Positions 7,991 through 28,785 of a stretch of DNA of 64,000 nt are shown piece by piece (within the stretch, counting starts at the first letter, position 1; every line of letters begins with the position of its first letter). The notes beneath the pieces are model-generated. The model ran no database searches. It was not told where the DNA came from and worked only from the letters and a program-made list of their open reading frames with translations. The stretch is from Ethanoligenens harbinense YUAN-3 (GTDB lineage Bacteria; Bacillota; Clostridia; Oscillospirales; Ethanoligenentaceae). Made by a program: the position numbers and the translations under genes. The DNA lies in assembly GCF_000178115.2 (NCBI RefSeq), contig NC_014828.1, positions 519,501 through 583,500 of the forward strand, in the 5' to 3' direction.

Positions 7991-8003
7991 GGGTCAGCCC
8001 TCC

Positions 8004-8507: not shown

Positions 8508-8509
8508 GG

Positions 8510-9339: not shown

Positions 9340-9343
9340 GGCA

Positions 9344-9766: not shown

Positions 9767-10131
9767 GTCACACTCCTATCCATCAGCCCGGTGTACAGCA
9801 AGTAGGTAGCCGCTGCATCCGCAAAGCTGGCTTGAAACTGGGCGCGGATATCGCTCAGCGTGTTGAATGTCTGGCTGAATCCGTCGTTGTTTTCCGACCT
9901 GACGGCGGCATTTACCTCCATTGCGCCGGACTGTTTTGCCGCCTGCATGCGGTCGATCACCGCGCAGGTGGCCATGCGCACCTCGTCCGTCACCGGCGCG
10001 CCGGTCTTCAGGCGGCCGAAGGTGACCCGGTCGATGAAGTTAGAGGCATCCCGCGCTAGGGCGGGAAAATCGCTCTCCGAAACGGCAGCACCTGCGTAGG
10101 CGCCGCTGTAAAAGGCATAGTCCGCATACAT
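9763..10131 (-). CDS. Head-tail connector protein (Gp6-like adaptor)
   Basis: 122 residues, mostly helical. ALARDASNFIDRVTFGRL and VTDEVRMATCAVIDRMQAAK are typical of the small adaptor that docks under the portal (Phage_connect_1/Gp6-like). It is the first gene after the major capsid gene, as expected. Its C-terminus ends FADAAATYLLYTGLMDRSVT and overlaps the next gene by four bases. Confidence 0.75.
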   Translation of the reverse strand: MYADYAFYSGAYAGAAVSESDFPALARDASNFIDRVTFGRLKTGAPVTDEVRMATCAVIDRMQAAKQSGAMEVNAAVRSENNDGFSQTFNTLSDIRAQFQASFADAAATYLLYTGLMDRSVT

Positions 10132-10143
10132 ATGCGCCCTCCC

Positions 10144-11319: not shown

Positions 11320-11331
11320 AGTTGCACTCCT

Positions 11332-11871: not shown

Positions 11872-11991
11872 ACACAGGCTCCTTTCGGTTGCGGTTTATG
11901 CGTGCGCCGCTACGCTTTTTTACGCCGGTTGCCTCGGCTGCGGCCCCGTAGTTTTACGACTTCGGGCCGGTCAACAGGTAAAAATGCGCAT

Positions 11992-12020
11992 AAAAATGCA
12001 CCCTCCAAAGAGGGCGCATA
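11992..12020 (-). terminator. Rho-independent terminator in the head operon
   Basis: On the minus strand the sequence reads TGCGCCCTC, loop TTTG, GAGGGTGCA, then TTTTT: a 9-pair stem with one G-T pair and a U run. It sits between the small gene at 12034-12261 and the scaffold gene. It could partly separate expression of the MuF gene pair from the capsid genes, or need antitermination. Confidence 0.7.
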
Positions 12021-12033
12021 CACGCGCGGACAA

Positions 12034-12261
12034 TTATTTTTGTGTGTTCAGGTAATAGACGCTGTCGTATACCCGCTGGGCCTTGCGTCCGAAATCATTG
12101 TAATCGTAATAGTGCGGGGGCGCATATCCCTTTTCTTCAATCAGGTCAAACAGGGCATCCAGCACATTGCCGAGGGAGGATCCACTGAGCAGCGCATCCG
12201 CATTTTCAAGATTTCGGCGGATAAAGGTTTTGTCGCTTTCTTCAAATTGCAGCATGCTCAT
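12034..12261 (-). CDS. Small acidic helical protein, putative immunity partner of the MuF toxin
   Basis: 75 residues, MSMLQFEESDKTFIRRN, then SLGNVLDALFDLIEEKGYA and YDYNDFGRKAQRVYDSVYY. It is acidic and helical, with no phage structural family that I recognise. It overlaps the end of the MuF-type gene by four bases (ATGA) and is followed at once by a terminator, so the two are coupled. In MuF polymorphic toxin systems of Firmicutes prophages the immunity gene occupies this position. The immunity role is inference from position, size and charge; it could equally be an accessory head protein. Confidence 0.5.
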   Translation of the reverse strand: MSMLQFEESDKTFIRRNLENADALLSGSSLGNVLDALFDLIEEKGYAPPHYYDYNDFGRKAQRVYDSVYYLNTQK

Positions 12262-15352: not shown

Positions 15353-15378
15353 CGTTCATTCCTCCTTTTCCAACCTTC

Positions 15379-16914
15379 TTACCGTTGTGCCTGCACGGTT
15401 TCGGCCATGCCGGTCGTGGCGTCCGGCGCGTCATCGTGCGCGTTTTTTCCTTCCCTCTGGTAGTCCATCATGGCATTATAATATGCCGGCCACCGGTCCC
15501 GCCAGTTCACGGGATAATAGGTGTGCTCCATGATCCACGGCGCGGCCGTCAGGATGCGCGCCACTTTGTTCCGGGTCTGGGCGAACCACCGCACGTTGGT
15601 GGAGTACCAGTGCAGTCGGTCGTCCAGTATCTGCTTGATGGCGCGGGCAAAGCCTTTGCCGCCGTTGTTGCTCTCAATGCGTGCCACAGTCACACCGTAA
15701 GCCTGCTGGCGCTTGGCGACCTCCGGCTCCGTAATCTCCATCGGCTCCTTAGTGTAGTAGACGTCGAGCACATAGGCTTCGTGTCTGTACACGCCGAAAA
15801 TAATGCTGCAAAGATAGTCGCTGCCCTCGTCGGCGGTGTCGGTGTAGCTGTAGATGCCGTCGAACAGCGGATGGCCGCTGATAGCGGGAATCTCCGCGTA
15901 GGTCTTGAACCCGCTGTACAGCCGCCCTTTCACGTCGATCGGTTCCTGCTGGTAGTTCGCGGCGGCGATCTCGGGCGCCATGGTGCGCGTTTTGTTTTCA
16001 TAGCTCTGCAGGCTGAGCACTTCGGGACATAGCATGGTGCCGTCGTCCTGAAAGGCTTTCATAGACAGGATGCGAACGGGTCGCCCCTGTTCGGCAAAGG
16101 TCTTCACCGCGCGCCCGGCCAGATCGCCGGTTGCCCAGCGCGTCATAATAATGATGATCTTGCCACCCTCTTCCACGCGCGAGAGCATCGTGTCCGTAAA
16201 CCAATGCCACTGGTTATCCAGCAGCGGCGCGTTGTTGGCTTCATACGCATTTTTGATAACATCATCAATAATGAGAAGCCCGCAGCCAAAACCGGTTGCC
16301 GTGCCCGTCGGGCTGGTGGCCAAATAGCTGGCATATTGCCCCTCCAACGCCCAGAGGTTGGCCGACGCGTCTCCCCGCTGGATGTGCACCCCCGGGAAGA
16401 TGTCGCTGTAGACCAGCATCCCCGGGTCGGTCTTCTGCTCGGCGATTCCGTTTCGGACGGATTTGGCAAACTGGGTGGAAAGGCGCTCGTTGTAACTGCC
16501 CGTCATAATTTTTTCAGCAGGATTGCATCCAAACACCCACTGAGCGAATAATCCGGCCGTCCGGCTCTTTCCATGCCGCGGCGGCAGGTTGATCACCAAC
16601 AGCTCGTCGCCGCTGCGGTAAAAATCTTGCAGTTCCGCACATAGCTGCACCAGGTAGGCCCGGTCGGGCTTGTAAAATTCCGGCGCACAAGCTCGGCAAA
16701 ACGCGAAAAAGTCCGTGCGCGCCCGCCGCATCACGGAGGTGCTCACGGCTCCACGTTTCCGCTTTGGCCCTTTTCCCAGTTTTACCATTTCGTTTAACAT
16801 CCGGATGCTTCTGTCCTGTTTGGTCTCCATCTCCATCACCTTCTCAAAATCACGCGCTGAAAGCCCCTGTGCGCCACGCTGGGGAACAGGGACAAAATGG
16901 GGCGGCAAACTCAT
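15379..16914 (-). CDS. Terminase large subunit
   Basis: 511 residues. The ATPase has NLPPRHGKSRT as the Walker A region (about residue 112), GLLIIDDVIKNA as Walker B, and MTRWATGDLAG as the coupling motif. The C-terminal nuclease shows YSYTDTADEGSDYLCS and VARIESNNGGKGFARAIKQ. This is the packaging motor, comparable to Mu gp28. ATG 16914 has little ribosome site; an internal ATG near 16836, preceded by GAGAAGGTG, is an alternative start that would remove about 26 residues. Confidence 0.9.
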   Translation of the reverse strand: MSLPPHFVPVPQRGAQGLSARDFEKVMEMETKQDRSIRMLNEMVKLGKGPKRKRGAVSTSVMRRARTDFFAFCRACAPEFYKPDRAYLVQLCAELQDFYRSGDELLVINLPPRHGKSRTAGLFAQWVFGCNPAEKIMTGSYNERLSTQFAKSVRNGIAEQKTDPGMLVYSDIFPGVHIQRGDASANLWALEGQYASYLATSPTGTATGFGCGLLIIDDVIKNAYEANNAPLLDNQWHWFTDTMLSRVEEGGKIIIIMTRWATGDLAGRAVKTFAEQGRPVRILSMKAFQDDGTMLCPEVLSLQSYENKTRTMAPEIAAANYQQEPIDVKGRLYSGFKTYAEIPAISGHPLFDGIYSYTDTADEGSDYLCSIIFGVYRHEAYVLDVYYTKEPMEITEPEVAKRQQAYGVTVARIESNNGGKGFARAIKQILDDRLHWYSTNVRWFAQTRNKVARILTAAPWIMEHTYYPVNWRDRWPAYYNAMMDYQREGKNAHDDAPDATTGMAETVQAQR

Positions 16915-17059
16915 TCAAAGCCGCGTTAAAAGCTGTTAAAAGCCTTATAAAAGGCCTGCGCATGCTCCGCCATCCCGTGACGGTAAGCCCGCCCGGTTTT
17001 TTGTTCCGTTTAACCTCCGGCTCCCGGTTTGGGACGAATCAACCGCCCCGGGCGTCGGA

Positions 17060-17554
17060 TTATTTGATCAGCGTGAACGACATGCGTAAGCAACGGTTGT
17101 GCATCATGGAAAGCGGTTCAAATACAAATGCCCGCCGCTGGCGCCGGTTGTACAGGATGCGCACGCCCGCGTCCGCATATTCCTTCAGCGGGCCGTCCAC
17201 CGGTTCAAACGTGTCGCCTGCCAGCTGCCGCACATGCGATTCAAAAGTCTGGCTGCCGATGCGCCGGATCAATGCTTCTTCATCCGGTAACAGTGCGGTG
17301 GCGTCCCCGGCATGCAGCTCCAACCAACGCAGCACCCCCGGCACGCGCCGGATCCGGTAATACATCGCGCAAACGTTGCCCACCACCACAAACACATAGC
17401 CGCCAAACAGCAGATAAGGCCGCGTCTGCCAGATGCCGCCGGAGCGGATCTGCCGGTTTTCTTCCGGGGCATAGGCGGGAATACCCTGGTCAAGCAGCGC
17501 GGCCCGCACGTCCTTCTCGGCCCCCGAAAGCACCTGCAGCACATACATGCTCAT
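17060..17554 (-). CDS. NusG-like transcription elongation or antitermination protein
   Basis: 164 residues. The N-terminus MSMYVLQVLSGAEKDVRAALLD, then RQIRSGGIWQTRPYLLFGGYVF, fits a NusG N-terminal (NGN) domain. There the G-Y-V-F phrase is conserved and contacts RNA polymerase. The C-terminal part (DTFEPVDGPLKEYADAG, ILYNRRQRRAFVFEPL) fits a KOW motif. Specialised NusG paralogues such as LoaP and RfaH let polymerase read through terminators in long operons. This gene sits near the start of the late operon, overlapping the DUF3486 gene by four bases, which suits a processivity factor for the 17-kb late transcript. The last point is inference. Confidence 0.7.
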   Translation of the reverse strand: MSMYVLQVLSGAEKDVRAALLDQGIPAYAPEENRQIRSGGIWQTRPYLLFGGYVFVVVGNVCAMYYRIRRVPGVLRWLELHAGDATALLPDEEALIRRIGSQTFESHVRQLAGDTFEPVDGPLKEYADAGVRILYNRRQRRAFVFEPLSMMHNRCLRMSFTLIK

Positions 17555-18123
17555 GGCGATTTCTCCTTTTTGGGCCGCAGGCTGCCGTCCCTTTTCTTTT
17601 CCGAAAGGAAGGAGGCTACTTGCTTATACAGTTCCGGCCGTTCTTTGGACATTGCCTGGAACACGATGGATTTCACTGCGTCGAGGCCGACGTCGGCCTC
17701 GGCCCGCACGGCGGCGTCCGTCCGCTTTTTATAGGATGCCGCGCGCGCCAGCCCCAGTGCGCTGTCCAGCAATTTGTCCTTGTCCAGATTGTTCCACTGG
17801 TCTTCATTCGTGTTGGCCAGGGCGGCGAACACGTTTTGGCTGGCCAGCCGGATGATCGCCTCGGTCGTGTCGAGATCCGGATACTTGTCCATTTCCTGCA
17901 TCATGCGGCTGAAATTTTCCTGCGCCACATTCAAGAGGGCGGCGTTGGCGTTATACCGCTGCGCGTACCGGCAGACACTGGCCGCGCTGATGGCTACATC
18001 ATGCCGTGCCAGATAGTCGATGACGTCCGCATAGGTACTTTTACCAGAGAGCAGCATCTGCTCCACTGTACTGCGCAGCGCGGGATTCAGCCCGTCGATG
18101 ATGCCATGCGCGCGGTTCGCCAT
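17551..18123 (-). CDS. DUF3486 family protein (Mu gp27-like, probable small terminase)
   Basis: 190 residues. An N-terminal helix-turn-helix region (STVEQMLLSGKSTYADVIDYL, SAASVCRYAQRYNANAALL) is followed by a long helical part (NEDQWNNLDKDKLLDSALGL) and a basic tail. This is the layout of DUF3486, Mu gp27, encoded just before the large terminase in Mu-like phages. It probably recognises the packaging site next to a phage end. Confidence 0.8.
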   Translation of the reverse strand: MANRAHGIIDGLNPALRSTVEQMLLSGKSTYADVIDYLARHDVAISAASVCRYAQRYNANAALLNVAQENFSRMMQEMDKYPDLDTTEAIIRLASQNVFAALANTNEDQWNNLDKDKLLDSALGLARAASYKKRTDAAVRAEADVGLDAVKSIVFQAMSKERPELYKQVASFLSEKKRDGSLRPKKEKSP

Positions 18124-18144
18124 TCCGATTCCCTCCCATCTGTC

Positions 18145-18471
18145 TCAGATCGATACCGCCGGGTCGGCCGCATAGCCTTTCAGCAGCTGAATGCCTTTGG
18201 CCGTCAGCCGCACCTCGGTATCGTCCTGATCGGCCTCGGCCACGTCCACGTCCGCGCCGTAGGCGGCGTGCCGCGCATGCAGATATCCGGCCTCCTGCAG
18301 ATAATACAGGGATTCGGCCAGCTCGCCTTTGGACACATCCGGCAGTGCATACTGTAGGCTGCGCATCTTGATATCCCGCCCGGACAGGATGTTGATGGTA
18401 CGCAGCAGCCGGCCGTTGTTGGCTGCAAACGCACCGCCCTCGATGCGGCGTTCCAGTTCTTTTTTATCCAC
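18145..18471 (-). CDS. Winged-helix protein (Mu gp26-like)
   Basis: 108 residues, MDKKELERRIEGGAFAANNG, LQYALPDVSKGELAESLYYLQ, then GYLHARHAAYGADVDVAEAD and a closing helix RLTAKGIQLLKGYAAD. The helix pattern is a winged-helix fold ending in an acidic wing. It lies between the DUF2730-like and DUF3486 genes, exactly where Mu-like phages have gp26. It overlaps the upstream gene by eight bases. It may take part in packaging or lysis-region control; the role is not known to me. Confidence 0.6.
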   Translation of the reverse strand: MDKKELERRIEGGAFAANNGRLLRTINILSGRDIKMRSLQYALPDVSKGELAESLYYLQEAGYLHARHAAYGADVDVAEADQDDTEVRLTAKGIQLLKGYAADPAVSI

Positions 18472-18802
18472 GGTTCTTATCTCCCTTCATTTCCAGCAGC
18501 ACGTCGAAAATGCGATCCTGCCGTCGGTTGACATCGGCAATCGCGCGCACAAAGTCGTCCTTGCGCATGTAATTGTCTTTCAGGGCGTCGATGCCTTCCG
18601 ACAGTTTTCCAAGGCCGGATTTCAGGTCGTCCTGCAGGCAGTCCATTTCTTCTTTCGTCACGTATTGGTCTTTGATAGCGCTGATTTCGGTTTCGTGCCG
18701 GTCGACCAGACCGATTGTTCGTTTCAAAAAAAAACCGATGATGCCGACAAGAACCGAGAGTATAAGCGGAGGGATTGCGTTCAGCCAGTTGGATGCATTC
18801 AT
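18464..18802 (-). CDS. DUF2730-like membrane-anchored coiled-coil protein (Mu gp25-like)
   Basis: 112 residues from MNASNWLNAIPPLILSVL. The upstream GGGGCGG favours ATG 18802 over the longer frame to 18928. One transmembrane helix (about 8-27, PPLILSVLVGIIGFF) is followed by a charged coiled coil (RHETEISAIKDQYVTKEEM, RQDRIFDVLLEMK). This is the DUF2730 plan of Mu gp25. It is the first gene after the terminator that follows mor, so it probably opens the late transcript. Confidence 0.65.
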   Translation of the reverse strand: MNASNWLNAIPPLILSVLVGIIGFFLKRTIGLVDRHETEISAIKDQYVTKEEMDCLQDDLKSGLGKLSEGIDALKDNYMRKDDFVRAIADVNRRQDRIFDVLLEMKGDKNRG

Positions 18803-18903
18803 ATATGTACCGCCCCTTCGGCGTGGATTTACAATGCGCCGCCGTGGTGCGGGCACGGCGGCAAGAACAAGAGGCAAGAAATGGAGGTTGTGGCGGGCGG
18901 CAA
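18803..18903 (-). promoter_or_regulatory. Probable late promoter region
   Basis: The 100 bases between the terminator after mor and the first late gene have no gene. In Mu-like phages the Mor/C family protein activates transcription just downstream of its own gene, so this is where a Mor-dependent promoter is expected. I do not see a clear consensus pair of promoter boxes, which fits an activator-dependent promoter. Inferred from layout. Confidence 0.4.
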
Positions 18904-18942
18904 ACAAAAAAGGCAGGCTACCGGCCACACCGATAGTCTACC
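18904..18942 (-). terminator. Terminator of the early operon
   Basis: On the minus strand GGTAGACTATCGG pairs with CCGGTAGCCTGCC (13 pairs with two G-T pairs and one mismatch) and is followed by TTTTTT. It directly follows mor and would end the early transcript before the late genes. Confidence 0.75.
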
Positions 18943-18972
18943 TTACAAGGCATATATATTGTAGATACAGGA

Positions 18973-19297
18973 TTAAAACATTTTTTTATCAAACAGGTTG
19001 ATTTGCCCGGAAATGGGGCCATACCGCATCCGTCTGGCGTCATCCTCTACGATCAAGCGAACGGTGCTTTCCGAAATTTGATACTCCAGCGCCAGCTCTT
19101 TATAGTTTTTTTCCGTCGAATTTCCGGCGGATCTGCTCGTTGCGGTCTTTGCGAAGCAGGCTGTTCGGGGCCTGCACATACACATAGGTTCCGCCGTGGT
19201 GTGTGGCCAGTGCCCGATAGGCTTCCATGCCGATCAGCTCCGCGAGTTCGCGCTGGTCGCCGTCCAGATCCTCCAGTGTAACACGTTCCAGATTCAT
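18973..19297 (-). pseudogene. mor: Mor/C-type late gene activator, frame broken at an A7 run
   Basis: Two overlapping frames together encode one Mor-family activator. The first frame (from ATG 19297) gives ERVTLEDLDGDQRELAELIG, then GGTYVYVQAPNSLLRKDRN and EQIRRKFDGK, and stops soon after. The second gives NYKELALEYQISESTVRLIV, the DNA-binding helix-turn-helix, and a closing tail. They join in a run of seven A (T7 at 19106-19112 on the plus strand): with six A the frame is continuous for 107 residues, normal for the family. It overlaps gemA by four bases. This is either a real mutation that cripples late expression, slippage control, or an assembly error. Confidence 0.8.
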
Positions 19298-19795
19298 CCA
19301 CCGCCCACCTCCCGGATGTGCCGCTTCTCCGCATTATAGCAGTAATTTTTCAGAAACTCAATCAGTTCGCCGCCCGCGGCCTGGTCCAGAAACTGCATCG
19401 GCTTTTTTGCGGTGCAGTCCATGCCGAATTGCCGCCGGATGATCCCGCACAGCCGGTCTCCAAGGGCAGCGTCCACCGGCTTGACGTCGAATTTTTTTCA
19501 GCTCGTACATCAGCGCCCACACCTTGCGCTGCTGGTCGGCGGTGATACCGCCGGGCGCTTCTTCGTAATGCCTGGGCTTTTTTCGGGCCGGAGGCACCGG
19601 CGGTGTGCCGCGCATCCGCCGCATCAGTTCCGCAATCACGCGCTGGGCTTCGTCCCGATCAAGCGCCGTAATGGATTCTTTGCCCGTCAGGCCATCCACC
19701 AACGCGTGCAGCTCATCGTCGTGGCCGCGCCCCACGATATGCAGCCCCGCGCCCAGGGCATAGATGGATTTGATCTGCTGCTTTGTAATGTTCAC
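19294..19795 (-). pseudogene. gemA: GemA/Gp16-type regulatory protein, frame broken at an A7 run
   Basis: The first frame from ATG 19795 opens MNITKQQIKSIYALGAGLHI and DDELHALVDGLTGKESITA, and reaches ADQQRKVWALMYELKK. The second continues FDVKPVDAALGDRLCGIIRR, MDCTAKKPMQFLDQAAGGEL and ends HIREVGGG. Joined they make a 166-residue Mu gp16 (DUF1018) protein. The join is in seven A (T7 at 19492-19498, plus strand); six A would be continuous. In Mu, gp16/GemA affects host gene expression and DNA supercoiling. The break is of the same type as in the next gene, mor. Confidence 0.8.
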
Positions 19796-19825
19796 CGCCG
19801 GTTCCTCCTTCTCAGTTTCTACCCG

Positions 19826-20491
19826 CTATTTTGAAGCCTCCACGGTCACTTTGGTGCCTTCCTCGACGACCACGGCTGCTTTCACGATATCGCGCGCGGC
19901 CTCAAATGTCCCTGTGTATCCGGCCGCCTGCAATAGCTGCCGAAAGCGCGTATAGGCCACGATCTCCGCCGCCATGTAGGCGTATTCCTCGGCGTCCGTT
20001 TTCGAAAGCCCGGCCACATCAATCAGGGCCTTTTTGTCGCGTTTGAAGTTGCCGCACAGCTTTTTGCGCAGGGTTTTGTTCGTTTTATCGTCATCGGCCA
20101 CCCGCGCAACGATATCGTCCAGCGACCCCTCCAGATAGTTTCCCGCGGCGATGGCGGCCAGCAGCTGCTTGCAGGCGGCGGTGGGCTGATAGGTCACGGG
20201 CTGCTCCTTGAACAAATCCCCGAAAACGCCCTGTAAAAGTGTTTTAAGAGCCGTTTCCGAAAGAATGTCCACCTTTTCGCTTGTGCCCACCTCCACGCGT
20301 CCGGCTGCGCTCCACCACGCCACGGTCTTTTCCTTGGTGTTCTCCAGGGCGTCGATGCCCAGGCGTTCAAAATAACCTTGCAGGTCGCCGATCTCGGCCT
20401 TGATTTTGCTTTCCTGCGCTTTCAGGGCAACCAGTCTGCCCACCCGCAGCACCGTTTCCTCCGTGGAGAAAAGAGGTTCATTCTCCATCAT
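19826..20491 (-). CDS. Early phage protein, Gp157/Gam-like layout, function unknown
   Basis: 221 residues. I chose ATG 20491 because it overlaps the stop of the previous gene (ATGA). A short helical start (RVGRLVALKAQESKIKAEIG, LQGYFERLGIDAL) leads to a beta-like phrase (KTVAWWSAAGRVEVGTSEKV). An alpha-helical C-terminus follows with LRKKLCGNFKRDKKALIDVA. The coiled-coil opening plus a central strand repeats the general plan of the Gp157 and Gam-like DNA-end or recombination proteins in early operons. The similarity is only in plan, so I leave the function open. Confidence 0.6.
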   Translation of the reverse strand: MMENEPLFSTEETVLRVGRLVALKAQESKIKAEIGDLQGYFERLGIDALENTKEKTVAWWSAAGRVEVGTSEKVDILSETALKTLLQGVFGDLFKEQPVTYQPTAACKQLLAAIAAGNYLEGSLDDIVARVADDDKTNKTLRKKLCGNFKRDKKALIDVAGLSKTDAEEYAYMAAEIVAYTRFRQLLQAAGYTGTFEAARDIVKAAVVVEEGTKVTVEASK

Positions 20492-20751
20492 GCACAAAAG
20501 TCCTCCAGCTTTTCCGCCGCCAGCGCGGCCAATTCACGCGCGCATGCCAGGCAGATTTCTTTGCCAGCCACGGTGACGACTTCCGTGGTGCCTCCACAGA
20601 AGATGCAGCTGGGCACATGCTTCCGGATGAGGATACCGTCTCCTGCGTCTTCGATGTCGATCGGCGCGCCGGGTGCCAGCCCTGCGGCATGCCGCACCGC
20701 CTGCGGGATCGTCAGGCCGCCCTTTCCGCCCAGTCTTTTGCTTACGGTCAT
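20488..20751 (-). CDS. AbrB-like DNA-binding domain fused to a zinc ribbon
   Basis: 87 residues. The first 45 (KRLGGKGGLTIPQAVRHAAG, PGAPIDIEDAGDGILIRKH) match the swapped-hairpin AbrB/MazE fold. The rest has CIFCGGTTEVVT and GKEICLACAREL, four cysteines in two CxxC pairs, a likely zinc ribbon. It is probably a small transcription regulator of the early operon. A very similar architecture (AbrB plus two CxxC) recurs in Firmicutes phages, as far as I remember. Confidence 0.7.
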   Translation of the reverse strand: MTVSKRLGGKGGLTIPQAVRHAAGLAPGAPIDIEDAGDGILIRKHVPSCIFCGGTTEVVTVAGKEICLACARELAALAAEKLEDFCA

Positions 20752-20752
20752 G

Positions 20753-21193
20753 TCAGTCCGCCTCCTTCTGGATTGTGTTCAGGTTCGCTTCCGCTTCCGC
20801 CAGCTTGCACAGCGCATCCGCAAGATACGATGCGCAGCGCCCGTCACTTTCCAGATCGACGCCCCGGGCGGTCATCTCGCAAATGGCTCTGCACACCGAT
20901 TCACGTGCATCCTGCATGGTGCAGGGACCCCGTTCCTCCGGCTTTGCGGGGGCCAGCGGCGCGCCTGCAACCTTTGCGGCGGGCACCGGCGTCCAGTCCG
21001 TGCCGTTAAAATCGTCAATGTCCGGTTCCCAGGGCACCAGCGGTGATAAGCCGCCGAGCGGGCCGTACGATTCCGTGCGCAGCAGTTTGCCGCCTGTCAG
21101 CAGGACATACCGCGCTTTCATGACCCCGATCTGGCGCGCGATGCATCCGCTTCCGTCGGTCATGGCTTGCCTGATCGCGTCTTTCAGTTCCAT
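20753..21193 (-). CDS. Small early protein with DUF2829/Tad2-like opening
   Basis: 146 residues from MELKDAIRQAMTDGSGCIAR. AGGAGG lies six bases upstream of ATG 21193, while the ATG two codons earlier would touch the ribosome site. The first 75 residues end PWEPDIDDFNGTDWTPVPA, similar in shape to the DUF2829 family (Thoeris anti-defence Tad2), whose members end in a DW phrase after a short beta fold. The rest (QDARESVCRAICEMTARGVD, LADALCKLAEAEANLN) is an unrelated helical tail. The family call is weak; the protein is certainly a small cytoplasmic early protein. Confidence 0.5.
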   Translation of the reverse strand: MELKDAIRQAMTDGSGCIARQIGVMKARYVLLTGGKLLRTESYGPLGGLSPLVPWEPDIDDFNGTDWTPVPAAKVAGAPLAPAKPEERGPCTMQDARESVCRAICEMTARGVDLESDGRCASYLADALCKLAEAEANLNTIQKEAD

Positions 21194-21294
21194 ATCCATC
21201 CTCCTTTGTTTTGGTTGGTGCTGCCTCCCTCTGCGTTTTCCGGGCTGGGGACCGGCTCTGGCCGCATTAAGGCGGGGCTTGCGCCCCCATATGT

Positions 21295-21603
21295 TCAATT
21301 CCAGTTGGATATCCGTCCGGGTCTTTCTTCACAATACAGTGCAAAGCTGTGCCTGCAACTCGGGTGATCCGGCGGCGCGTTTTTTCCGGCTTCAAACCCG
21401 CGTCTGTATCCACGGGCATATGCCTTGTGCCGCCCAAATTCGTACCCGAGCAGGATACCGAGCGCCAGCACCAGCACCAGCACCGCCAGTTCCGCCGCCC
21501 AGCCGGGCGCAGACATTCCGCCCACCGATGCCGCCAGCACGCCGCCGGCGCTGAAAACCGCACCAAAAAGGATTCCTGCCCAAAACCATGCCAGTTTACG
21601 CAT
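21295..21603 (-). CDS. Small membrane protein
   Basis: 102 residues from MRKLAWFWAGILFGAVFSAG; AGGACAG upstream selects ATG 21603. Two hydrophobic helices (about 5-28 and 36-56, AELAVLVLVLALGILLGYEF) are followed by a basic tail (GRHKAYARGYRRGFEAGKN). It overlaps the end of the preceding gene by eight bases. I recognise no family. A two-helix early membrane protein could act in superinfection exclusion or be a holin-like protein, but nothing proves it. Confidence 0.55.
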   Translation of the reverse strand: MRKLAWFWAGILFGAVFSAGGVLAASVGGMSAPGWAAELAVLVLVLALGILLGYEFGRHKAYARGYRRGFEAGKNAPPDHPSCRHSFALYCEERPGRISNWN

Positions 21604-22069
21604 GTGCCTGTCCTCTCTTTCTCTCCCGGTGCCGGATTTCCTCCAGCACAACCCGCAGCCTTGTTTTTTCGCGTTGTCCCTGCGCCACGCGCTCCGCATA
21701 TACGTCCGCGGCCGTATACAATTCCTCATCGCTCAGCCTACGCACTGCGGCTTCCACGGCCGTCACATTTTTGGCGGCGGCCAGTGTCTCCGGCAGCTTC
21801 AGTTCTTCTTTAGGGGACGGTTCAACCGGCGCGATGGCAAACTCCGCCGGATCAAACACTTCCCAATCTTTCGCCAGTATCTCGTTCAATGTCAGGCTGG
21901 CACTCCGGTACGCCACGGAAAGGCGCGTTTCCGGTCCAAACGTAGCTTTTGCCATCATTTGGGGATACGACTGCGGCCGGATTACCATCTTGCGGCCCTG
22001 CCCAATGGGCAAACATACACAGGTTGCGCCGCAAGCCCACATTGACTTCACAGCCGATACAAAATCCAT
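21596..22069 (-). CDS. DUF2829-like (Tad2-like) small early protein
   Basis: 157 residues starting MDFVSAVKSMWACGATCVCL, with YPQMMAKATFGPETRLSVAY and LTLNEILAKDWEVFDP. An N-terminal phrase M-D-F-x-x-A-V-K, a short beta domain and a closing LAKDWEV are the recognisable marks of DUF2829, whose best-known member Tad2 captures the signalling nucleotide of Thoeris defence. A helical C-terminus (TAVEAAVRRLSDEELYTAAD) is extra. The anti-defence role is inference from family resemblance. Confidence 0.55.
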   Translation of the reverse strand: MDFVSAVKSMWACGATCVCLPIGQGRKMVIRPQSYPQMMAKATFGPETRLSVAYRSASLTLNEILAKDWEVFDPAEFAIAPVEPSPKEELKLPETLAAAKNVTAVEAAVRRLSDEELYTAADVYAERVAQGQREKTRLRVVLEEIRHRERKRGQAHA

Positions 22070-22075
22070 GCTGTT

Positions 22076-22363
22076 TCATCTCCTCCCGTATGCCATGCGC
22101 TTGTTCAGCTCTTTTTTTACCGCCTGATACCGGTCTGCCACATGGTATCCCTGCGCCTTGTAAGAACCCAGCGCGGCTTTGGCAATACGCAAGTCGCGCG
22201 TGTCCGCCTGGTGAAGCTGCTCCAGAAACACGGCGCTTTCGACCGCCGACAAATACCACAACCCCAAAGTTTCATCTCCTTTTCGTTTTCCAATTTGCAG
22301 CAGGCACATCACCGTCACGCCGGCGGACGCGCCGAAAAAACTGCCGAGAATAAATAATCCCAT
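22076..22363 (-). CDS. Small membrane-anchored protein (DUF3789-like N-terminus)
   Basis: 95 residues, MGLFILGSFFGASAGVTVMCLL, then QIGKRKGDE: one N-terminal transmembrane helix ending at a Cys-Leu-Leu phrase, as in DUF3789. A soluble helical part follows (AVESAVFLEQLHQADTRDLR, YQAVKKELNKRMAYGRR). It lies between the MuB-like ATPase and the DUF2829-like gene. The function is unknown. Confidence 0.55.
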   Translation of the reverse strand: MGLFILGSFFGASAGVTVMCLLQIGKRKGDETLGLWYLSAVESAVFLEQLHQADTRDLRIAKAALGSYKAQGYHVADRYQAVKKELNKRMAYGRR

Positions 22364-22373
22364 GTTTATTCCC

Positions 22374-23324
22374 TCATATGATACCGATGCCCATTTCCCG
22401 GGCCTGCAGCGTCAGCATGTCGATTCCAATGTTTTCCGCGTCAACCGCATTGTTGTACACATTTACGCCGCCGCGGATTCCGTAACGGCCCTGGCAGATG
22501 CCGCGCAAAAAGTTCAACTCTCGTTTTTTCCCTTCCAGCGCGGGAAACAACAGCGCGATATCTTCCGGTGTTACCTGTTTGGTGGTGTATTTTCGGGTGA
22601 GCCGCTTGCGGGAATAGAGCTGCGCAAAGCACGATTGCCTGCGTCCTTCCATCCGGTCGTAGATTTCGGAGTTTCCGATCAGCACGATGCCGATGCCTTT
22701 TTTCCCATCAATGTGCGGCTCGGAAAGGGGCCGAATCTCGTCCAGCGCCCGCACCTGCAAATGCTGGGCTTCGTCGATGATGAGGACTTTGTCCGTATTG
22801 TACAGGCGTTCCTTCAGGTCGATGATCATATCCAGCTTGCTGCGCCCCTCGGGGATATGCAGCGCCCGGCAGATCAGCTTCATCACGTTTCCTACGGTGC
22901 CGGTGAGAGGGGTCACGGTGATCAGCACGGCGGTGTTGGGGTTGTCCCGCAAATATTTTTCGGCCGCCATCGTCTTCCCGATGCCCGCGTCACCGTGCAG
23001 GATGGTGATGCCTTTTTTCAACTGCCCAAAGCGGATTGCCTTGCGGATGTCCTCGCTGACGCTGATCGGTATGTAGGTGTCCAGCACGGGCTGAAATGGT
23101 TCAGCGCGTTGCGCCTGGGCGGCCGCCTCGTCCTGCAGCCGGAAATACTCCCTCAGGCTGGCTTCCACCTCATCCACACGTCCGCGCTCATAATCGCTGC
23201 GACGGTATTGGCTGATGACGCCGTCGCTCCATCCAAGGATACGGGATGCTTTGGCTTGGCTACCGCACTGCTTGATCAGTTCCTCTACGCGAGCCTGTAA
23301 TTTTACATCGTATGTTTGTGCCAT
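22374..23324 (-). CDS. MuB-type AAA+ target-selection ATPase
   Basis: 316 residues. An N-terminal helix-turn-helix (GSQAKASRILGWSDGVISQY) precedes an AAA+ core with GDAGIGKTMAAEKYL as Walker A (about residue 113) and KVLIIDEAQHLQV as Walker B (about 180). VLIGNSEIYDRMEGRRQSC acts as sensor and arginine region. In Mu, B binds target DNA, protects the phage DNA from self-integration and activates A. It is encoded just after the transposase gene, as in Mu, with 15 bases between. Confidence 0.9.
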   Translation of the reverse strand: MAQTYDVKLQARVEELIKQCGSQAKASRILGWSDGVISQYRRSDYERGRVDEVEASLREYFRLQDEAAAQAQRAEPFQPVLDTYIPISVSEDIRKAIRFGQLKKGITILHGDAGIGKTMAAEKYLRDNPNTAVLITVTPLTGTVGNVMKLICRALHIPEGRSKLDMIIDLKERLYNTDKVLIIDEAQHLQVRALDEIRPLSEPHIDGKKGIGIVLIGNSEIYDRMEGRRQSCFAQLYSRKRLTRKYTTKQVTPEDIALLFPALEGKKRELNFLRGICQGRYGIRGGVNVYNNAVDAENIGIDMLTLQAREMGIGII

Positions 23325-23339
23325 TTCCTGTTCCTCCTG

Positions 23340-25292
23340 TCAGATGTCCTTATGTTGAGACGCCCTTTGGGCGTTTTCGGCATTTTTCAGCATGGTGTCC
23401 AGCGGCAATGCGCCGTTCACCACACGCGGCGGCATCAGCGGTTCCTCGCTCACGCGGTGGATCTGCAGTACCGAGCGGTCAGGTTCCCCATTTTCCATTC
23501 GGGCGGCAATATTCCGCTGCGCGTCACCCAGCACCAGATCCAGCGCGTCCACCTGATCCATAGAGGCCAGTACGCGGGACTTGATCTCCTGCCGGGCCAG
23601 CTTCTTGGCGGACTTGATTTTGCTGATGGATTCTTTCGCAACTTCCTTGCTGGTAACATAGCCGGATATGATGTTGCTGTTCGCCTGAAGGACGGCGATA
23701 AACCGGTCCTGCTCATCGTAGACGCGCACGGAACTGATGTTTTCCGGGTCGTAGCGCACATAAACCTGCTCGCCTTGGTAACGCAGGCAAAACGCGTCGT
23801 CCCGGTAGTCAATGCGGAACCCGCCAATCGTCAGATGCACGCCCATTCGGCCAACCTTTTGCAAGCGCGTGCTGCGCATCAGCATCAGCGTCAAGTCGTC
23901 GGCGGAGGCCACGCGTTTTTCTTCCAGATGGTCGTAGTAAACGTCCTTCCGGTTTTGTCCTTTGTCCGCCGCGACGGAGCCGTTGTAAGGCTGCTCGTTG
24001 AAGTATCCTTCCAGCAGTTGCCCCACAACCTCGCGCAGCCGGTGATCCGCAGGCACATGCCCGGCTTTCAGCACATGTTTCAGATTTGCGGGCTTTTCAA
24101 GCACGTTCCCGCCCGTGAACGTCATAAATAGTCGGCTGATTTGGTTCTTGAAATCAAGGAACCGGCGTTCGATGATCTTCGCCCGCGCATTCCGCACCTG
24201 CGCGTTGATCATCGTAATGCCAAGCCTGGCGAAAATCGGCGGCGGCGAAAAAGTATCCGCGCTTTTCTTTTTCCGGCGGTGCCCGAGGCCCCCAACGTCG
24301 TATGTAAGGAACTCGCGGCCGTTATCTACATAGATATACTTTGGAATGCCATATTGCAGGATGCCCGCGCGCAGCGCGTAAATTGTGGCTTCGCTGGATG
24401 GGTTATCCGTGATATGGAACCCTGTGATGATGCCGGAGCGCGCGTCCATGAATGCTGTGAGGTACAGGCGATGCCTTGTCCCGTTTTCCCCCTCGCTGAT
24501 GATGTCGAAGGTGTGGTTGTCCGCAATCCAGAAATCATTGGATGCCATGTCGTCGTAGATGCGGGGTAGATACGGCCCGCATCGGTCGTCAAATACCTTG
24601 TCGCCCTCGCGACCCAGCACATTGAGCGCCTCCGGTATCTCGGCCTTCCAGCGCCGGTAAAAAGCGCTGTAGGATGGGATCCCGGCCAGCAATTCCGGGT
24701 GTTCCTGCTCACACCAGAGCTGTGTGTAGTGGATGCATTGCTTCATTGGGTACTTGCGCAGGTCGAACCAGTAGGACAGGAAGCATTCCCACACCGTTTC
24801 ATCCATCGCGTACCGTCCTTTGCGCCACTTTCCGCGCCGGTCGATCAGTCCGTCATAATGCTGGTCGCGCCATGCCTTCCAGCGGCGGTACAGCACGTCC
24901 GTCGAGATAGACAGTTCCGGTTTCCGCTGCCGCATCTGCGCCACAAAGGCTCCGTCAGCTACTTTTCGGTCGCGACCGATGCGGTAGGTCTTCCATTCCT
25001 GTACGATCCCGATCCACAGCTCGATTTCCCGGCGCTCCTCGTCGCTGTAAGCATCCAGCGGCTTGGGCGGCTCCTGCGGCGCGGTAATGGCCTCGGTTTT
25101 TGGCGGCGCCGCCCGGCCGTAGTATTTGGCCTGCAGTTTTTCCGGTAGCGCCGTCACCGGCACCAGATACTGCCTGATGTGGTTGCGCGGGTCGCCGTCC
25201 AGCACATGCTCCAGCTTGCCTTTGGCAATTAGTGCGCGCACATACTGCGGTGTGCACCCTTTAACCTGCGCCACCTGCGCCACTGTCAGCAT
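23340..25292 (-). CDS. MuA-type DDE transposase
   Basis: 650 residues. The N-terminus (LTVAQVAQVKGCTPQYVRAL) is a helix-turn-helix. The catalytic core has DDE residues in NDFWIADNHTFD (about D257), PKYIYVDNGREFL (about D321) and RNARAKIIERRFLDFKNQ (about E373). The C-terminal Mu-transposase beta barrel follows (VYVRYDPENISSVRVYD, DRFIAVLQANSNIISGYV), then a basic helical tail that in MuA contacts MuB. Length is close to MuA (663). It integrates and replicates the phage by transposition from sites at the two phage ends. Confidence 0.95.
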   Translation of the reverse strand: MLTVAQVAQVKGCTPQYVRALIAKGKLEHVLDGDPRNHIRQYLVPVTALPEKLQAKYYGRAAPPKTEAITAPQEPPKPLDAYSDEERREIELWIGIVQEWKTYRIGRDRKVADGAFVAQMRQRKPELSISTDVLYRRWKAWRDQHYDGLIDRRGKWRKGRYAMDETVWECFLSYWFDLRKYPMKQCIHYTQLWCEQEHPELLAGIPSYSAFYRRWKAEIPEALNVLGREGDKVFDDRCGPYLPRIYDDMASNDFWIADNHTFDIISEGENGTRHRLYLTAFMDARSGIITGFHITDNPSSEATIYALRAGILQYGIPKYIYVDNGREFLTYDVGGLGHRRKKKSADTFSPPPIFARLGITMINAQVRNARAKIIERRFLDFKNQISRLFMTFTGGNVLEKPANLKHVLKAGHVPADHRLREVVGQLLEGYFNEQPYNGSVAADKGQNRKDVYYDHLEEKRVASADDLTLMLMRSTRLQKVGRMGVHLTIGGFRIDYRDDAFCLRYQGEQVYVRYDPENISSVRVYDEQDRFIAVLQANSNIISGYVTSKEVAKESISKIKSAKKLARQEIKSRVLASMDQVDALDLVLGDAQRNIAARMENGEPDRSVLQIHRVSEEPLMPPRVVNGALPLDTMLKNAENAQRASQHKDI

Positions 25293-25386
25293 TTCCGTGT
25301 TGCATCACCTCTTTTCGGTTGGCCTGCCATCATCAGCGCGAGGAGGCCATCCCCAGCGGACAGGGCTTTCACCCCGTTTCGGCTTT

Positions 25387-26220
25387 TCACTGCGAGCGGT
25401 AATCCTTCCCGCTCATTGGCACATCATACGCCATCCCGTGCAGCCGACTGACGATGCCGGTGGCCGTTTCCCGGTCGCTTTGCAGGGCCAGCCGCCGGAT
25501 CAGCGCGTCGTCCACATAATTGGTGGTCACGATGGTGGGCCGCATCTGGCGGTACCGGCCGTCGAGAATGCCAAAAAACTGTGCCAGGCTCCAGTCGGTC
25601 ACATGCTCCTTGCCCAGGTCATCCACCACCAGCAGATCGGCGCTCACATAAGCGCGCATCGCTGTATACTCGGTTTCATTCAGCGCCCCGTCCATCACGG
25701 CCCGAAAATCCAGCAGGATGTCCACCGCCGCCTTGCAGATCACCGCATGCTCCTTTTCACACAGCGCGCGGGCAATGGCGTATGCCAAATGTGTTTTTCC
25801 CAGCCCGTTGGCGCCGTGCAGATATAGTCCCATGCCTTTTTTTCGCTGCGCGCCGAATCGTTCAACATACGCCGAAACCATCTCCAACGCCCTTTGATCG
25901 CCCGGCGGGACGCTATAGTTTTGCAGGGTGCAGTGCGTATACCGCGCCGGAATATCCATGGCTTTAAGCAGTTTGTCCACTTTCCCCTGATGTAACTGCT
26001 CCACACGGTATTGCTCTTGCTTGGCCTTGGCAGCTGCCGTTTGTTCGCGTCTCCGCACAGCGCCCTCACAATCGCATATTTCATAGATTCCCAGCAGATA
26101 CGTTTGTCCAGATGCCACCGTGTGCGTCAGTTGATGCAGTATCCTCCCACAGTAGGGGCATTTCTGGTCCGGAAGCGGCTGAAACCAGCTTTCCAGCCCG
26201 TTCTTCATCGCCTGTTCCAT
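25387..26220 (-). CDS. DnaC-like helicase loader (IstB/DnaC AAA+ ATPase)
   Basis: 277 residues. A zinc-finger-like start (QKCPYCGRILHQLTHTV, ending in a YEICDCEG phrase) leads to an AAA+ domain. It has GLYLHGANGLGKTHLAYAIA (Walker A), ADLLVVDDLGKEHVTD (Walker B) and RPTIVTTNYVDDALIRRL (sensor 1). Length and layout fit DnaC/DnaI loaders. Placed with the replisome-organiser-like gene, it suggests the phage recruits the host helicase itself rather than relying on host PriA-type restart alone, as Mu does. Confidence 0.85.
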   Translation of the reverse strand: MEQAMKNGLESWFQPLPDQKCPYCGRILHQLTHTVASGQTYLLGIYEICDCEGAVRRREQTAAAKAKQEQYRVEQLHQGKVDKLLKAMDIPARYTHCTLQNYSVPPGDQRALEMVSAYVERFGAQRKKGMGLYLHGANGLGKTHLAYAIARALCEKEHAVICKAAVDILLDFRAVMDGALNETEYTAMRAYVSADLLVVDDLGKEHVTDWSLAQFFGILDGRYRQMRPTIVTTNYVDDALIRRLALQSDRETATGIVSRLHGMAYDVPMSGKDYRSQ

Positions 26221-26221
26221 A

Positions 26222-26563
26222 TCAGTCCTCCAGTAAGTCGGAGGCCGACCGAAACCGCCCGGTAGCCGCCGGAGCGGCTTTCTTCTTTTGCCTGCGGCGT
26301 GCTTCTTGCAAATAGCTTTCGGTCTTTCCCTGCGAACGAAAGAGCGTCTCTGGCCGAAGATATCGCGCGAAGTCGGAATCCGCCCATGCGGCCGACATAC
26401 CGTCGATCACGTCCAGCAGATCCTGCTCGCTAAAACCGTCTGCCAGACGTGCCAGCACATGGCGTCTGTTCGCCGCTGCTTCTGCCCGGTAACGCGCGCC
26501 TGTTTTTTCATTCAGGTACGCAATCACCCGCCCGATCACGGTCTGTTCTTCCTGTTTATCCAT
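26222..26563 (-). CDS. Replisome-organiser-like protein (phage conserved C-terminal domain)
   Basis: 113 residues from MDKQEEQTVIGRVIAYLNEK; the AGGAGGGAG upstream of ATG 26563 rules out the longer frame. VIAYLNEKTGARYRAEAAANRR, LADGFSEQDLLDVIDGM and FARYLRPETLFRSQGKTESY match the conserved C-terminal domain found in phage replication initiators. Here it stands alone without the usual N-terminal winged helix. It is encoded one base before the DnaC-like loader, its probable partner. In other phages the pair loads the replicative helicase. Confidence 0.8.
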   Translation of the reverse strand: MDKQEEQTVIGRVIAYLNEKTGARYRAEAAANRRHVLARLADGFSEQDLLDVIDGMSAAWADSDFARYLRPETLFRSQGKTESYLQEARRRQKKKAAPAATGRFRSASDLLED

Positions 26564-26579
26564 GTCTCCCTCCTGATGA

Positions 26580-26759
26580 TTACGATGCTTGGCGGCTGGC
26601 CCGTTTGAGGCCCTTGATGACCAGGCTTTCCGTCGCCAGCGCGATGGACATGCTGTTCTCGTCCGCATATTTTTTGATGGAATCGTATACCCCCAGCTCG
26701 TACCGCACGGTAACGGGCTTCGTCGGCGTGCCACGCGCTCGGGTCTTCGCAATTTGCAT
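26580..26759 (-). CDS. Ribbon-helix-helix DNA-binding protein
   Basis: 59 residues from MQIAKTRARGTPTKPVTVRY, start chosen by AGGAGG seven bases upstream of ATG 26759. A basic strand (KPVTVRYELGVYDSIKKYAD) and two helices (SIALATESLVIKGLKRASRQ) give the ribbon-helix-helix plan. It is the first gene of the early operon, so it is likely a small autoregulator or the Mu Ner counterpart. Its target is unknown. Confidence 0.7.
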   Translation of the reverse strand: MQIAKTRARGTPTKPVTVRYELGVYDSIKKYADENSMSIALATESLVIKGLKRASRQAS

Positions 26760-26842
26760 TTTGCACCTCCTTTGTGGTTGCAACGCGGTTGCATGTTGTG
26801 TTCCTGCGTGATACACTTGCTTTATGGTGGTTGCATAATCAC

Positions 26843-26871
26843 ATTATATTTCTACAAAGTGAAATAGTCAA
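26843..26871 (-). promoter_or_regulatory. Early operon promoter
   Basis: On the minus strand TTGACT (26866-26871) is followed after exactly 17 bases by TATAAT (26843-26848), a near-perfect sigma-A promoter pointing into the early operon. The untranslated leader to ATG 26759 is about 75 bases. Confidence 0.8.
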
Positions 26872-26896
26872 TAGAATTATATCTCTTTATAGAAAT
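26848..26896. promoter_or_regulatory. Candidate repressor operator pair
   Basis: ATTTCTACAAAG (26848-26859) and CTTTATAGAAAT (26885-26896) form an inverted repeat matching at 11 of 12 bases, centred 26 bases apart. The left half-site covers the -10/spacer of the early promoter and the right half lies just before the repressor ribosome site. Two sites in this arrangement suit repression of the early operon and self-control of the repressor gene. The three GGTTGCA copies at 26766-26837 could be sites for the second, ribbon-helix-helix regulator. Confidence 0.6.
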
Positions 26897-26916
26897 ATTT
26901 ATAAAGGGGATTATAT

Positions 26917-27327
26917 ATGGAATTTAAAGATATATTGATTTCGTTGTTAAACCAACAGAATAAAACCGTTTATCGCTTGTCTAAAGACATCGGTGTATCA
27001 CCCAGCCTTGTAGGTTACTGGAAAAAAGGTGAGAAGACACCTTCTATTGTCAATATGCAAAAATTAGCCGACTATTTTGGTGTATCTGTAGACTACCTCC
27101 TTACCGGCGAAAAATCACCTGAAACAGATCCGCCACGCGATCCCGAGGAGGCCGAGATCGACAGCCAGATCACAGGCATAAAATACGCCCTTTCTTCGCT
27201 GGATCGGGACGCGATCGGCGACCTCACCATAGGCGAAAAAAAGGACGTTTTAAAATTCATCAACTTCTTGAAGTCGCAGCGGCCAGGCGCGAAAAAGAAA
27301 GAAGGGAACAGTGGTGACAACCCTTGA
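26917..27327 (+). CDS. Phage repressor, XRE/CI-like
   Basis: 136 residues. The helix-turn-helix at about 10-60 (NKTVYRLSKDIGVSPSLVGYW, GEKTPSIVNMQKLADYFGV, VDYLLTGEKS) is classic XRE type. The C-terminal part (AEIDSQITGIKYALSSLDRD, EKKDVLKFINFLKSQ) lacks the Ser-Lys autoprotease of LexA-type repressors, so induction probably works through the adjacent ImmA-like protease. Start ATG with AAAGGGG 7 bases upstream. Divergent from the early operon, and AT-richer than it. Confidence 0.9.
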   Translation: MEFKDILISLLNQQNKTVYRLSKDIGVSPSLVGYWKKGEKTPSIVNMQKLADYFGVSVDYLLTGEKSPETDPPRDPEEAEIDSQITGIKYALSSLDRDAIGDLTIGEKKDVLKFINFLKSQRPGAKKKEGNSGDNP

Positions 27328-27730
27328 ATATCTTCTTCAAAAAGCAGCCGATAATGGAATTTCTGTTTATGAATTATCTCTTGAGAACATCCAGTCCATG
27401 ATTGCGGATTTAAAAGACATGGACCCTGCTATTTGTCTGAGTTCTTCTGGCATTTCCTCATCCCGGGAAGCTGCCGAACTGATGGCGCATGAACTGGGTC
27501 ACTTCTTTACGGGTACATATTATGATTCACCCTATTGTGCCAATAATCGTGGAAAAATGGAGCATAAGGCCAATACTTGGATGGTGAAAGAATTGCTTCC
27601 GTTCGCCTCCCTTCGGGAAGCTCTAAAAGATAGTTGCCACGAATATTGGGAGATTGCGGAATACTGCAATTGCACTGAGCATCTGGTGGAAACGGCCATT
27701 CAAATTTATCAGCAAAAAGGATTATTATAA
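27311..27730 (+). CDS. ImmA/IrrE-type zinc metalloprotease
   Basis: 139 residues; GTG 27311 overlaps the repressor gene by 17 bases. The zinc motif is AELMAHELGHFFTGTYYD (His60, Glu61, His64), with the third ligand probably in KMEHKANTWMVKEL. In ICEBs1 and related elements ImmA cleaves the cognate repressor to induce the element. The tight pairing with a non-autocleaving repressor supports this here. Confidence 0.9.
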   Translation: MVTTLEYLLQKAADNGISVYELSLENIQSMIADLKDMDPAICLSSSGISSSREAAELMAHELGHFFTGTYYDSPYCANNRGKMEHKANTWMVKELLPFASLREALKDSCHEYWEIAEYCNCTEHLVETAIQIYQQKGLL

Positions 27731-27766
27731 TTCATTTTTCAATAAGTAATTTTAGTTTTCGCCAGG

Positions 27767-27788
27767 GTCGCGCAACCAGTTGCGCGAC
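27767..27788 (+). repeat. Perfect 10-base inverted repeat
   Basis: GTCGCGCAAC, spacer CA, GTTGCGCGAC, followed by AAGAAAATTTT. Just downstream, at 27800-27811, the related phrase GTTGCGCGAGTT recurs. It could be a terminator for the repressor-ImmA transcript or a protein-binding site near the phage end; the run of T is weak. Confidence 0.5.
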
Positions 27789-27878
27789 AAGAAAATTTTA
27801 GTTGCGCGAGTTGCGGGTGAATTTTGTAAAATTTGCAATTTTTACACAGATTCACCCGGAATGCCGACATAATCGTAA

Positions 27879-27924
27879 AAAGCCTGTAAAACCAGCGTTA
27901 AAGCGGTTTTACAGGCTTTCTTTT
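27879..27924 (+). terminator. Rho-independent terminator after the repressor operon
   Basis: AAAGCCTGTAAAACC (27879-27893) pairs perfectly over 15 bases with GGTTTTACAGGCTTT (27905-27919) and is followed by CTTTT. It would end the plus-strand repressor-ImmA transcript before the phage end. Confidence 0.85.
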
Positions 27925-27929
27925 AATTT

Positions 27930-28131
27930 TTAAAAGGTTTTAAAAGCACATTTTTCAAAAGCAGGGGAGCAGCATGTTCCCCCTTTATCTCGTGCGAAAA
28001 CGCCCCGTTTTCGTTTTCGCACTATTTGCAAATTTTTTATTTTTTCACGGCTCATTTTCACGATTTTTTGGCTTATCTACGCCGTTTTTCGCATTTTTCC
28101 GGTTTTTTTCATCAACTCAGCCTTTTTTGCA
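27930..28131. mobile_element. Repressor-side end of the transposable prophage with transposase-site-like repeats
   Basis: No gene. Read on the minus strand, five or more copies of a motif of type (T/C)G(C/T)GAAAA occur. GTGCGAAAACG at 28012-28022 stands opposite an inverted copy at 27992-28002; others are CGTGAAAAA at 28041-28049, CGTGAAAATG at 28053-28062 and TGCGAAAAAC at 28084-28093. Mu ends carry repeated MuA sites with a CGAAAA core, so these are good candidates. The outermost TGCAAAAAAGG (minus strand, ending at 28131) starts with TG as transposon ends do. Beyond it the mrr reading frame resumes. The exact base of the junction is inferred. Confidence 0.6.
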
Positions 28132-28443
28132 TTCTTCCCGAAAACTCACATTCAGGCCAAGCACTGGAATGAAAACCATGCGGTTGGTAGCAAAGAAATA
28201 CGTGATTTTTATGGTGCAATGGGCGCGGGAGACAAAAGCAAACGGGGTATTTTCGTTACCACCTCTTTTTTTACAGACGATGCCAAAGAAACATCCAAAC
28301 TGTTTTTTGATCGTAAGATGATTCTGATTGACCGGGATAGATTATTACGTCTCATGATTGAAAACAATGTGGGTGTTGTGCCTAAACACTCTTATGTGCT
28401 CAAAAGTGTAGATGAAAATTTGTTCGACGAAGAAGAAGGATAG
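28132..28443 (+). pseudogene. mrr: C-terminal part of an Mrr-family restriction endonuclease, interrupted by the prophage
   Basis: An open frame runs from the phage end to TAG 28441. It reads KTHIQAKHWNENHAVGSKEI, then GAMGAGDKSKRGIFVTTSFF, KLFFDRKMILIDRDRLLRLM, ENNVGVVPKHSYVLKSVDE and LFDEEEG. This matches the second half of the Mrr catalytic domain: the QAK is the end of the nuclease motif, and IFVTTSFF and ILIDRDRLLRLMIE are conserved. The first half, with the winged helix and catalytic Asp, is missing, and the frame upstream is phage-end DNA. The 5' part should lie beyond the other phage end, left of this window. Confidence 0.8.
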
Positions 28444-28687: not shown

Positions 28688-28732
28688 CTCATAACCCGAA
28701 GGTCGTCAGTTCAAATCTGGCTCCCGCAACCA
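28688..28732 (+). pseudogene. 3' fragment of initiator tRNA-fMet (CAT)
   Basis: The sequence contains the anticodon loop CTCATAA (CAT at 28690-28692), then CCCGAAGGTCGTCAG, TTCAAAT, CTGGC and TCCCGCAACCA, that is the anticodon 3' stem, T-arm, acceptor 3' strand and encoded CCA of an initiator tRNA. The 5' half is not present upstream (TTTGCCGCAAAAACTG instead). Displaced tRNA 3' ends are the usual mark of the distal junction of an element integrated into a tRNA gene. The intact tRNA would lie elsewhere, probably to the left. Confidence 0.8.
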
Positions 28733-28738
28733 AAACAA

Positions 28739-28785
28739 ACCGCCTAGGCAAGCCACTCGTGGCAAGCCTGGGCGGTTTTCTTTTT
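28739..28785 (+). terminator. Terminator after the tRNA fragment
   Basis: ACCGCCTAGGC and GCCTGGGCGGT pair (one G-T), enclosing a smaller hairpin GCCACTCGTGGC, and are followed by TTTTCTTTTT. It is the natural terminator carried along with the tRNA-fMet 3' end. Confidence 0.8.

Follow-up and report, generated by a model that had tools for sequence, protein, structure and literature searches.

The host of the Faecalibacterium phage Mushu belongs to the gut Clostridia. Mushu is a Mu-like phage with a 5-bp direct repeat at its insertion site, and its virion ends carry variable host DNA (PMC5883640). Phage Mu and the D3112/Ab30 saltoviruses have A and B transposition proteins and transpose to many sites, with TGT...ACA termini stated for the D3112 group, and the integration of the Pseudomonas saltoviruses is described as mostly widely distributed, with some hotspots (PMC5977238). 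On the side of the host gene, EcoKMrr is a winged helix fused to an Mrr-cat domain with a PD-QxK site, and the E. coli enzyme is described as reacting, in certain contexts, to 6mA and 5mC (PMC12707154). None of the titles listed in a literature search concerned a transposable phage within mrr, although this does not prove that there is no such report.

The locus described here lies in a window of 64,000 nucleotides (bases 519501-583500 of the Ethanoligenens harbinense YUAN-3 genome, a single contig of 3,008,576 bases rated 100% complete). It includes the repressor-side part of prophage a, a Mu-like transposable prophage of 32,768 bp (genome 514883-547650) that starts 4,618 bases to the left of window base 1 and whose final base is window 28150. 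This element shares with phage Mu and the saltoviruses the A and B proteins, TGT...ACA termini (those of the D3112 group) and insertion at many sites, but they are distant relatives, with transposases of about 23-30% identity to that of prophage a among the matches listed. Among the annotated phage records, the highest-ranking of those matches was Bacillus phage BalMu-1 (KP063902/KP063903), with 38.5% transposase A identity over 82% of the query, although its host and its length (39.9 kb) are different. Mushu, similar in being Mu-like and in its 5-bp repeat, is a different phage by size (36.4 kb) and was absent among the 30 transposase matches listed.

A prophage splits the mrr gene

A Pfam search of the genome located Mrr_cat at three places, namely a full domain at 1053925 and two halves of one gene, with domain positions 3-54 at genome 514715-514885, 4.6 kb to the left of the window, and positions 49-115 of 115 at genome 547641-547856 (window 28141-28356). 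The halves have the same order and strand and are 32.8 kb apart. A sequence-only reading of the window had proposed that a prophage was inserted in mrr and that the frame beyond the phage end resumes the catalytic domain up to its normal stop. The resumed frame was confirmed, with the stop at 28443, and the 5' part that this reading expected before the other phage end was found at genome 514229-514882, carrying Mrr_N and Mrr_cat 3-54. The flanks without the insert and one TTCAG form a single open frame of 313 codons, in which Pfam detected both Mrr_N (positions 1-86/87, 2.7e-33) and Mrr_cat (3-115/115, 6.6e-31). The rejoined protein contains the acidic residue and the QxK catalytic motif (DGGVDG...IYIQAK) and aligns with a paralogue and other homologues. 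On this rejoined reading, the N-terminal winged helix followed by Mrr-cat with a PD-QxK site is like that of EcoKMrr (PMC12707154). Both ends, the target duplication, the rejoined open frame and a second prophage with the same termini demonstrate that a transposable prophage is inserted in mrr, as had been proposed.

The phage cut the gene after codon 218 (Q218), between the Q and the AK of the predicted catalytic motif (IYIQAK), and the 5' piece meets a stop in the phage sequence after only five further codons (CSFSR); the nuclease activity is therefore expected to be lost, and the product of the split gene is very likely dead as a nuclease. Elsewhere the genome encodes a Mrr paralogue (1053427-1054380, 40% identity) whose frame is uninterrupted; used as query, this paralogue retrieved no solved structure at E 0.01. 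None of the 59 genomes searched had an unoccupied mrr locus (the gene was found only in its own genome, the best other match being 40%), so the empty site was reconstructed from the flanks only. The coordinates of the features in the window are given in Table 1.

Table 1. Features of the prophage, the split mrr gene and the island edge, in window coordinates.
Feature	Position	Strand	Evidence or remark
Prophage a, right-hand (repressor-side) part	1..28150		Termini from junction comparison; the second prophage aligns by BLAST up to exactly these first and last bases
Tail tape measure protein	3217..6396	-	phrog_1272 3.2e-97
Major capsid protein	10144..11319	-	PF05065 2.7e-33
Portal protein	13928..15352	-	phrog_533 9.3e-124
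Large terminase subunit	15379..16914	-	phrog_30251 1.4e-191
Mu Gp27-like / small terminase	17551..18123	-	PF11985 5.4e-14; phrog_426
GemA-like protein	19358..19795	-	PF06252 4.2e-12
Transposition protein B (MuB-like AAA ATPase)	22374..23324	-	PF13401 3.5e-21; phrog_296 4.1e-54
Transposase A (MuA-like, DDE)	23340..25292	-	PF09299 3.5e-16; phrog_310 3.2e-103
DnaC-like helicase loader	25387..26220	-	phrog_50 2.9e-55
Phage repressor (HTH)	26917..27327	+	PF01381 7.9e-11; N-terminal part unlike that of the second prophage
ImmA/IrrE-like metalloprotease	27311..27730	+	PF06114 8.3e-9; phrog_87
Possible second repressor-side MuA-type site	28014..28035		Weak: end-matrix score of 15.4, the same as that of the top chance match in host DNA
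Repressor-side end site, MuA-binding-site-like	28124..28145	-	Bases 6-27 from the phage terminus
Target duplication TTCAG, 5 bp, right copy	28151..28155	+	Left copy at genome 514878-514882; 5-bp length confirmed by TCCTC of the second prophage
mrr 3' part, remainder of Mrr_cat to the normal stop	28151..28443	+	Mrr_cat 49-115/115
Right border of the mobilizable island, a duplicate of the tRNA-Met 3' end	28688..28740	+	53 bases identical to genome 499750-499802

Termini, target duplication and end sites

At the left junction the reading ...TTGATATACATTCAG continues into TGTAGCTTTTCGCGC..., and at the right junction ...CGAAAACTCACA (phage end, 28150) is followed by TTCAGGCCAAGC.... The sequence common to both sides is 8 bp long (ACATTCAG), and for this reason the mrr site alone leaves the termini ambiguous by three bases. 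The same genome carries a second, related prophage of 31,325 bp (genome 82685-114009), whose transposase is 98% identical to that of prophage a and whose target is a DUF6143 gene with flanks that also rejoin into an open frame. Its BLAST match with prophage a ends exactly at the termini deduced from the mrr site, and the terminal bases of both prophages are identical (200/200 at the far end and 100/100 at the repressor end), while their aligned blocks differ by 4 to 27%. Both elements begin with TGT and end with ACA, corresponding to TG...CA termini, and each has its own 5-bp target duplication, TTCAG in mrr and TCCTC in the second site. With identical ends and a duplication of its own, the second prophage fixes the termini independently of the mrr site; as its flanks share exactly 5 bases, the duplication is of 5 bp and the 8-bp alternative (ACATTCAG) was ruled out. 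The exact termini and target duplication of a little-described Mu-like phage group of gut Clostridia were thus obtained from two related prophages in one genome.

The sequence-only reading had placed the phage end at about 28131, 19 bp from the actual one, and had expected a five-base repeat around TTCTT at 28132-28136. The 5-bp duplication does exist, but as TTCAG: TTCTT is absent beside the 5' mrr piece, where TTCAG is present, and the match of the second prophage ends at the base equivalent to 28150, both of which rule out a terminus at 28131. The CGAAAA-type motifs noticed at the phage end were real, since TTTTCG/CGAAAA repeats are found at the phage ends and resemble MuA-type sites. The far end has three 22-bp units in tandem, starting at bases 7, 29 and 51, and the repressor end has a single one, starting at base 7; these repeats are putative transposase-binding sites, and the candidate inner sites on the repressor side are weak. 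Taken in a register one base further in, the repressor-end unit scored 26.0 on an end matrix that it had itself helped to build, together with the three far-end units, compared with a best score of 13.1 in window 1-27800. Against the Mu site consensus, the far-end units, read one base earlier, matched at 18, 17 and 17 of 22 positions; among 127,958 window positions, a score of 17 occurs 10 times and one of 18 never. The repressor-end unit matched this consensus at 15/22, a level common in the window (317 positions).

Transposase A is a DDE transposase with the Mu C-terminal domain (PF09299), rve being below its cut-off, and the AAA target-selection protein B adjoins it. Judging from the ends, the duplication and the protein family, transposase A would bind the MuA-type sites at both termini and would link the 3' ends to the target DNA with a stagger of 5 bp.

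Insertion targets across the phage group

Used as a single-sequence query, the transposase found no relatives in the genome or viral contigs searched. Relatives were fetched with an alignment (A1) of 11 transposases, and their repressor-side ends were called by likeness to the end of prophage a. Scanning covered 141 of 160 loci and yielded a candidate in 38, with 26 of these at the spacing of prophage a itself (17). Four of the 26 (L151, L157, L169 and L177), none with more than about 100 bases of host sequence, were dropped and L071 (spacing 18) was added, giving 23 ends. Both own prophages, G180 and G393 brought the number of called ends to 27 (G091 and L083 were taken as one record and counted once). 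The exact termini of the two prophages make the end model usable for insertion-site calls in relatives, and the shared end pattern can be used for such calls in gut Clostridia. In the repressor-side ends of the 26 loci, the common pattern was TGT, then AATRCAAA-like bases from 17 bases in.

The target frames of 19 of the 23 ends were scanned with Pfam, leaving out L049, L069, L109 and L133, which had no long frame; 11 could be named and eight had no match (L052, L071, L079, L084, L096, L099, L115 and L179). Over the whole set, 15/27 called ends were in a Pfam-named gene, and mrr was the only restriction gene (1/15), the other 14 targets being GH3, LCM methyltransferase, DUF6143, IS1 transposase, AAA_25, DUF6020, ApbE, DUF4367, NrdD, DUF6076, GlmU-like, resolvase, EAL and RHS. 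PADLOC, run on 17 target fragments, returned Mrr-type matches (the Mrr fragment) and one weak DrmD match (3.7e-5). Insertion was seen at many unrelated sites, the 15/27 called ends lying in differing named genes, with most of the 27 called one-sided. As judged from these called ends, a small and mostly one-sided sample selected by likeness to the termini of prophage a, the group shows no aim at restriction genes, although one restriction gene among 15 targets may be compatible with a mild preference or with selection.

A matched duplication was found in only four of the called insertions (both own prophages, G091 and G180). When end pairs were scored on how long a frame the flanks restored, most of the pairs returned were false. 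The search using TGT...ACA and the likeness of the two ends recovered both own prophages, at ranks 2 and 1 in their respective lists, and put forward G091 and G180, with nothing convincing for G279, G352 and G309.

The host island carrying mrr

The split gene sits at the right-hand end of an island (genome 499718-548240) of about 15.7 kb without the prophage, whose edges are marked by a 53-bp repeat; the copy at genome 499750-499802 lies within and slightly beyond tRNA-Met (499718-499794). The island encodes a tyrosine integrase, a MobC/NikA-like protein and a relaxase, and its defence cargo consists of HsdM, RhuM, HsdS pieces that surround a second tyrosine recombinase, HsdR and mrr. The hsdM and hsdR frames near the split mrr are intact, and the hsdS locus is likely a phase-variable specificity locus. 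The ICR loci of E. coli likewise hold hsdRMS with mrr (PMC12707154), whereas mrr is here on a tRNA-Met mobilizable island and is broken by a prophage, an example of a transposable phage nested inside a mobilizable defence island. Being defence cargo of an integrative mobilizable element in a tRNA-Met gene, mrr would be a dispensable target in which insertion is tolerated. A plasmid search with the 3' mrr flank returned only the tRNA stretch among the 20 matches listed. The hsdS pieces are in both orientations around the tyrosine recombinase (L004:137-3100), where 16 bases form a perfect inverted repeat (208-223 and 849-864).

Chance insertion or selection

The locus is very probably explained by a Mu-like phage that transposed, with a 5-bp target duplication, into an essentially arbitrary site inside mrr, on a dispensable tRNA-Met mobilizable defence island. 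The insertion is exactly mapped and its mechanism is ordinary; transposition chemistry, loss of Mrr activity and chance over selection are what we infer. An assembly artefact, in which the phage was wrongly joined into mrr, is scarcely credible: two related prophages with common ends could confuse an assembler, but the two junctions are consistent, a separate 5-bp duplication accompanies each prophage, an open frame is restored from either pair of flanks, the copies differ by 4 to 27% in aligned blocks, and the assembly consists of one 3.0-Mb contig with a completeness rating of 100%. A targeting preference of the phage group for restriction or defence genes is also very improbable. One of the two prophages of the genome is in mrr, and one more of the 17 scanned target fragments has the weak DrmD match, but 14 of the 15 Pfam-named targets are other genes.

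Under selection, the phage or the lysogen would benefit from losing Mrr, for instance if Mrr attacked DNA methylated by the adjacent phase-variable type I methyltransferase or by incoming elements. The island of mrr also carries hsdM, an intact gene for an N6-adenine methylase, and hsdS cassettes around a tyrosine recombinase, and the E. coli enzyme can respond, depending on context, to 6mA and 5mC (PMC12707154). We nevertheless consider selection unlikely, given that a full-frame Mrr paralogue remains at 1053427, that no methyltransferase family was matched among the phage proteins scanned (part of the ORFs), that the sister prophage is in a DUF6143 gene and that the sequence holds nothing to tell selection from chance. 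Somewhat less likely still is that the insertion was kept because it relieved a conflict of Mrr with the phase-variable type I methyltransferase of the same island; the prophage would then be the off-switch of a self-conflicting defence module, and the leftover winged-helix fragment may still bind DNA without cutting. The sequence-only reading had also suggested that loss of mrr protects the phage, and this counter-defence claim is weak: with the paralogue uninterrupted, hsdM and hsdR intact and the other named targets unrelated to restriction, self-protection by killing mrr is unsupported. Arbitrary insertion into mrr is thus the preferred reading.

Other genes of the prophages

Beside the genes of Table 1, NusG-like and minor head proteins are encoded by prophage a. 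The repressors of the two prophages (window 26860-27150 compared with L023:7509-7931) are identical at only 29/72 positions of the N part but at 59/63 of the C part, and similarity also falls in the DNA just upstream of the repressor start. This difference could represent a swapped immunity module, which would let both prophages coexist in one cell. A serine recombinase of the DNA-invertase family is encoded just inside the far phage end (L004:7019-7621).
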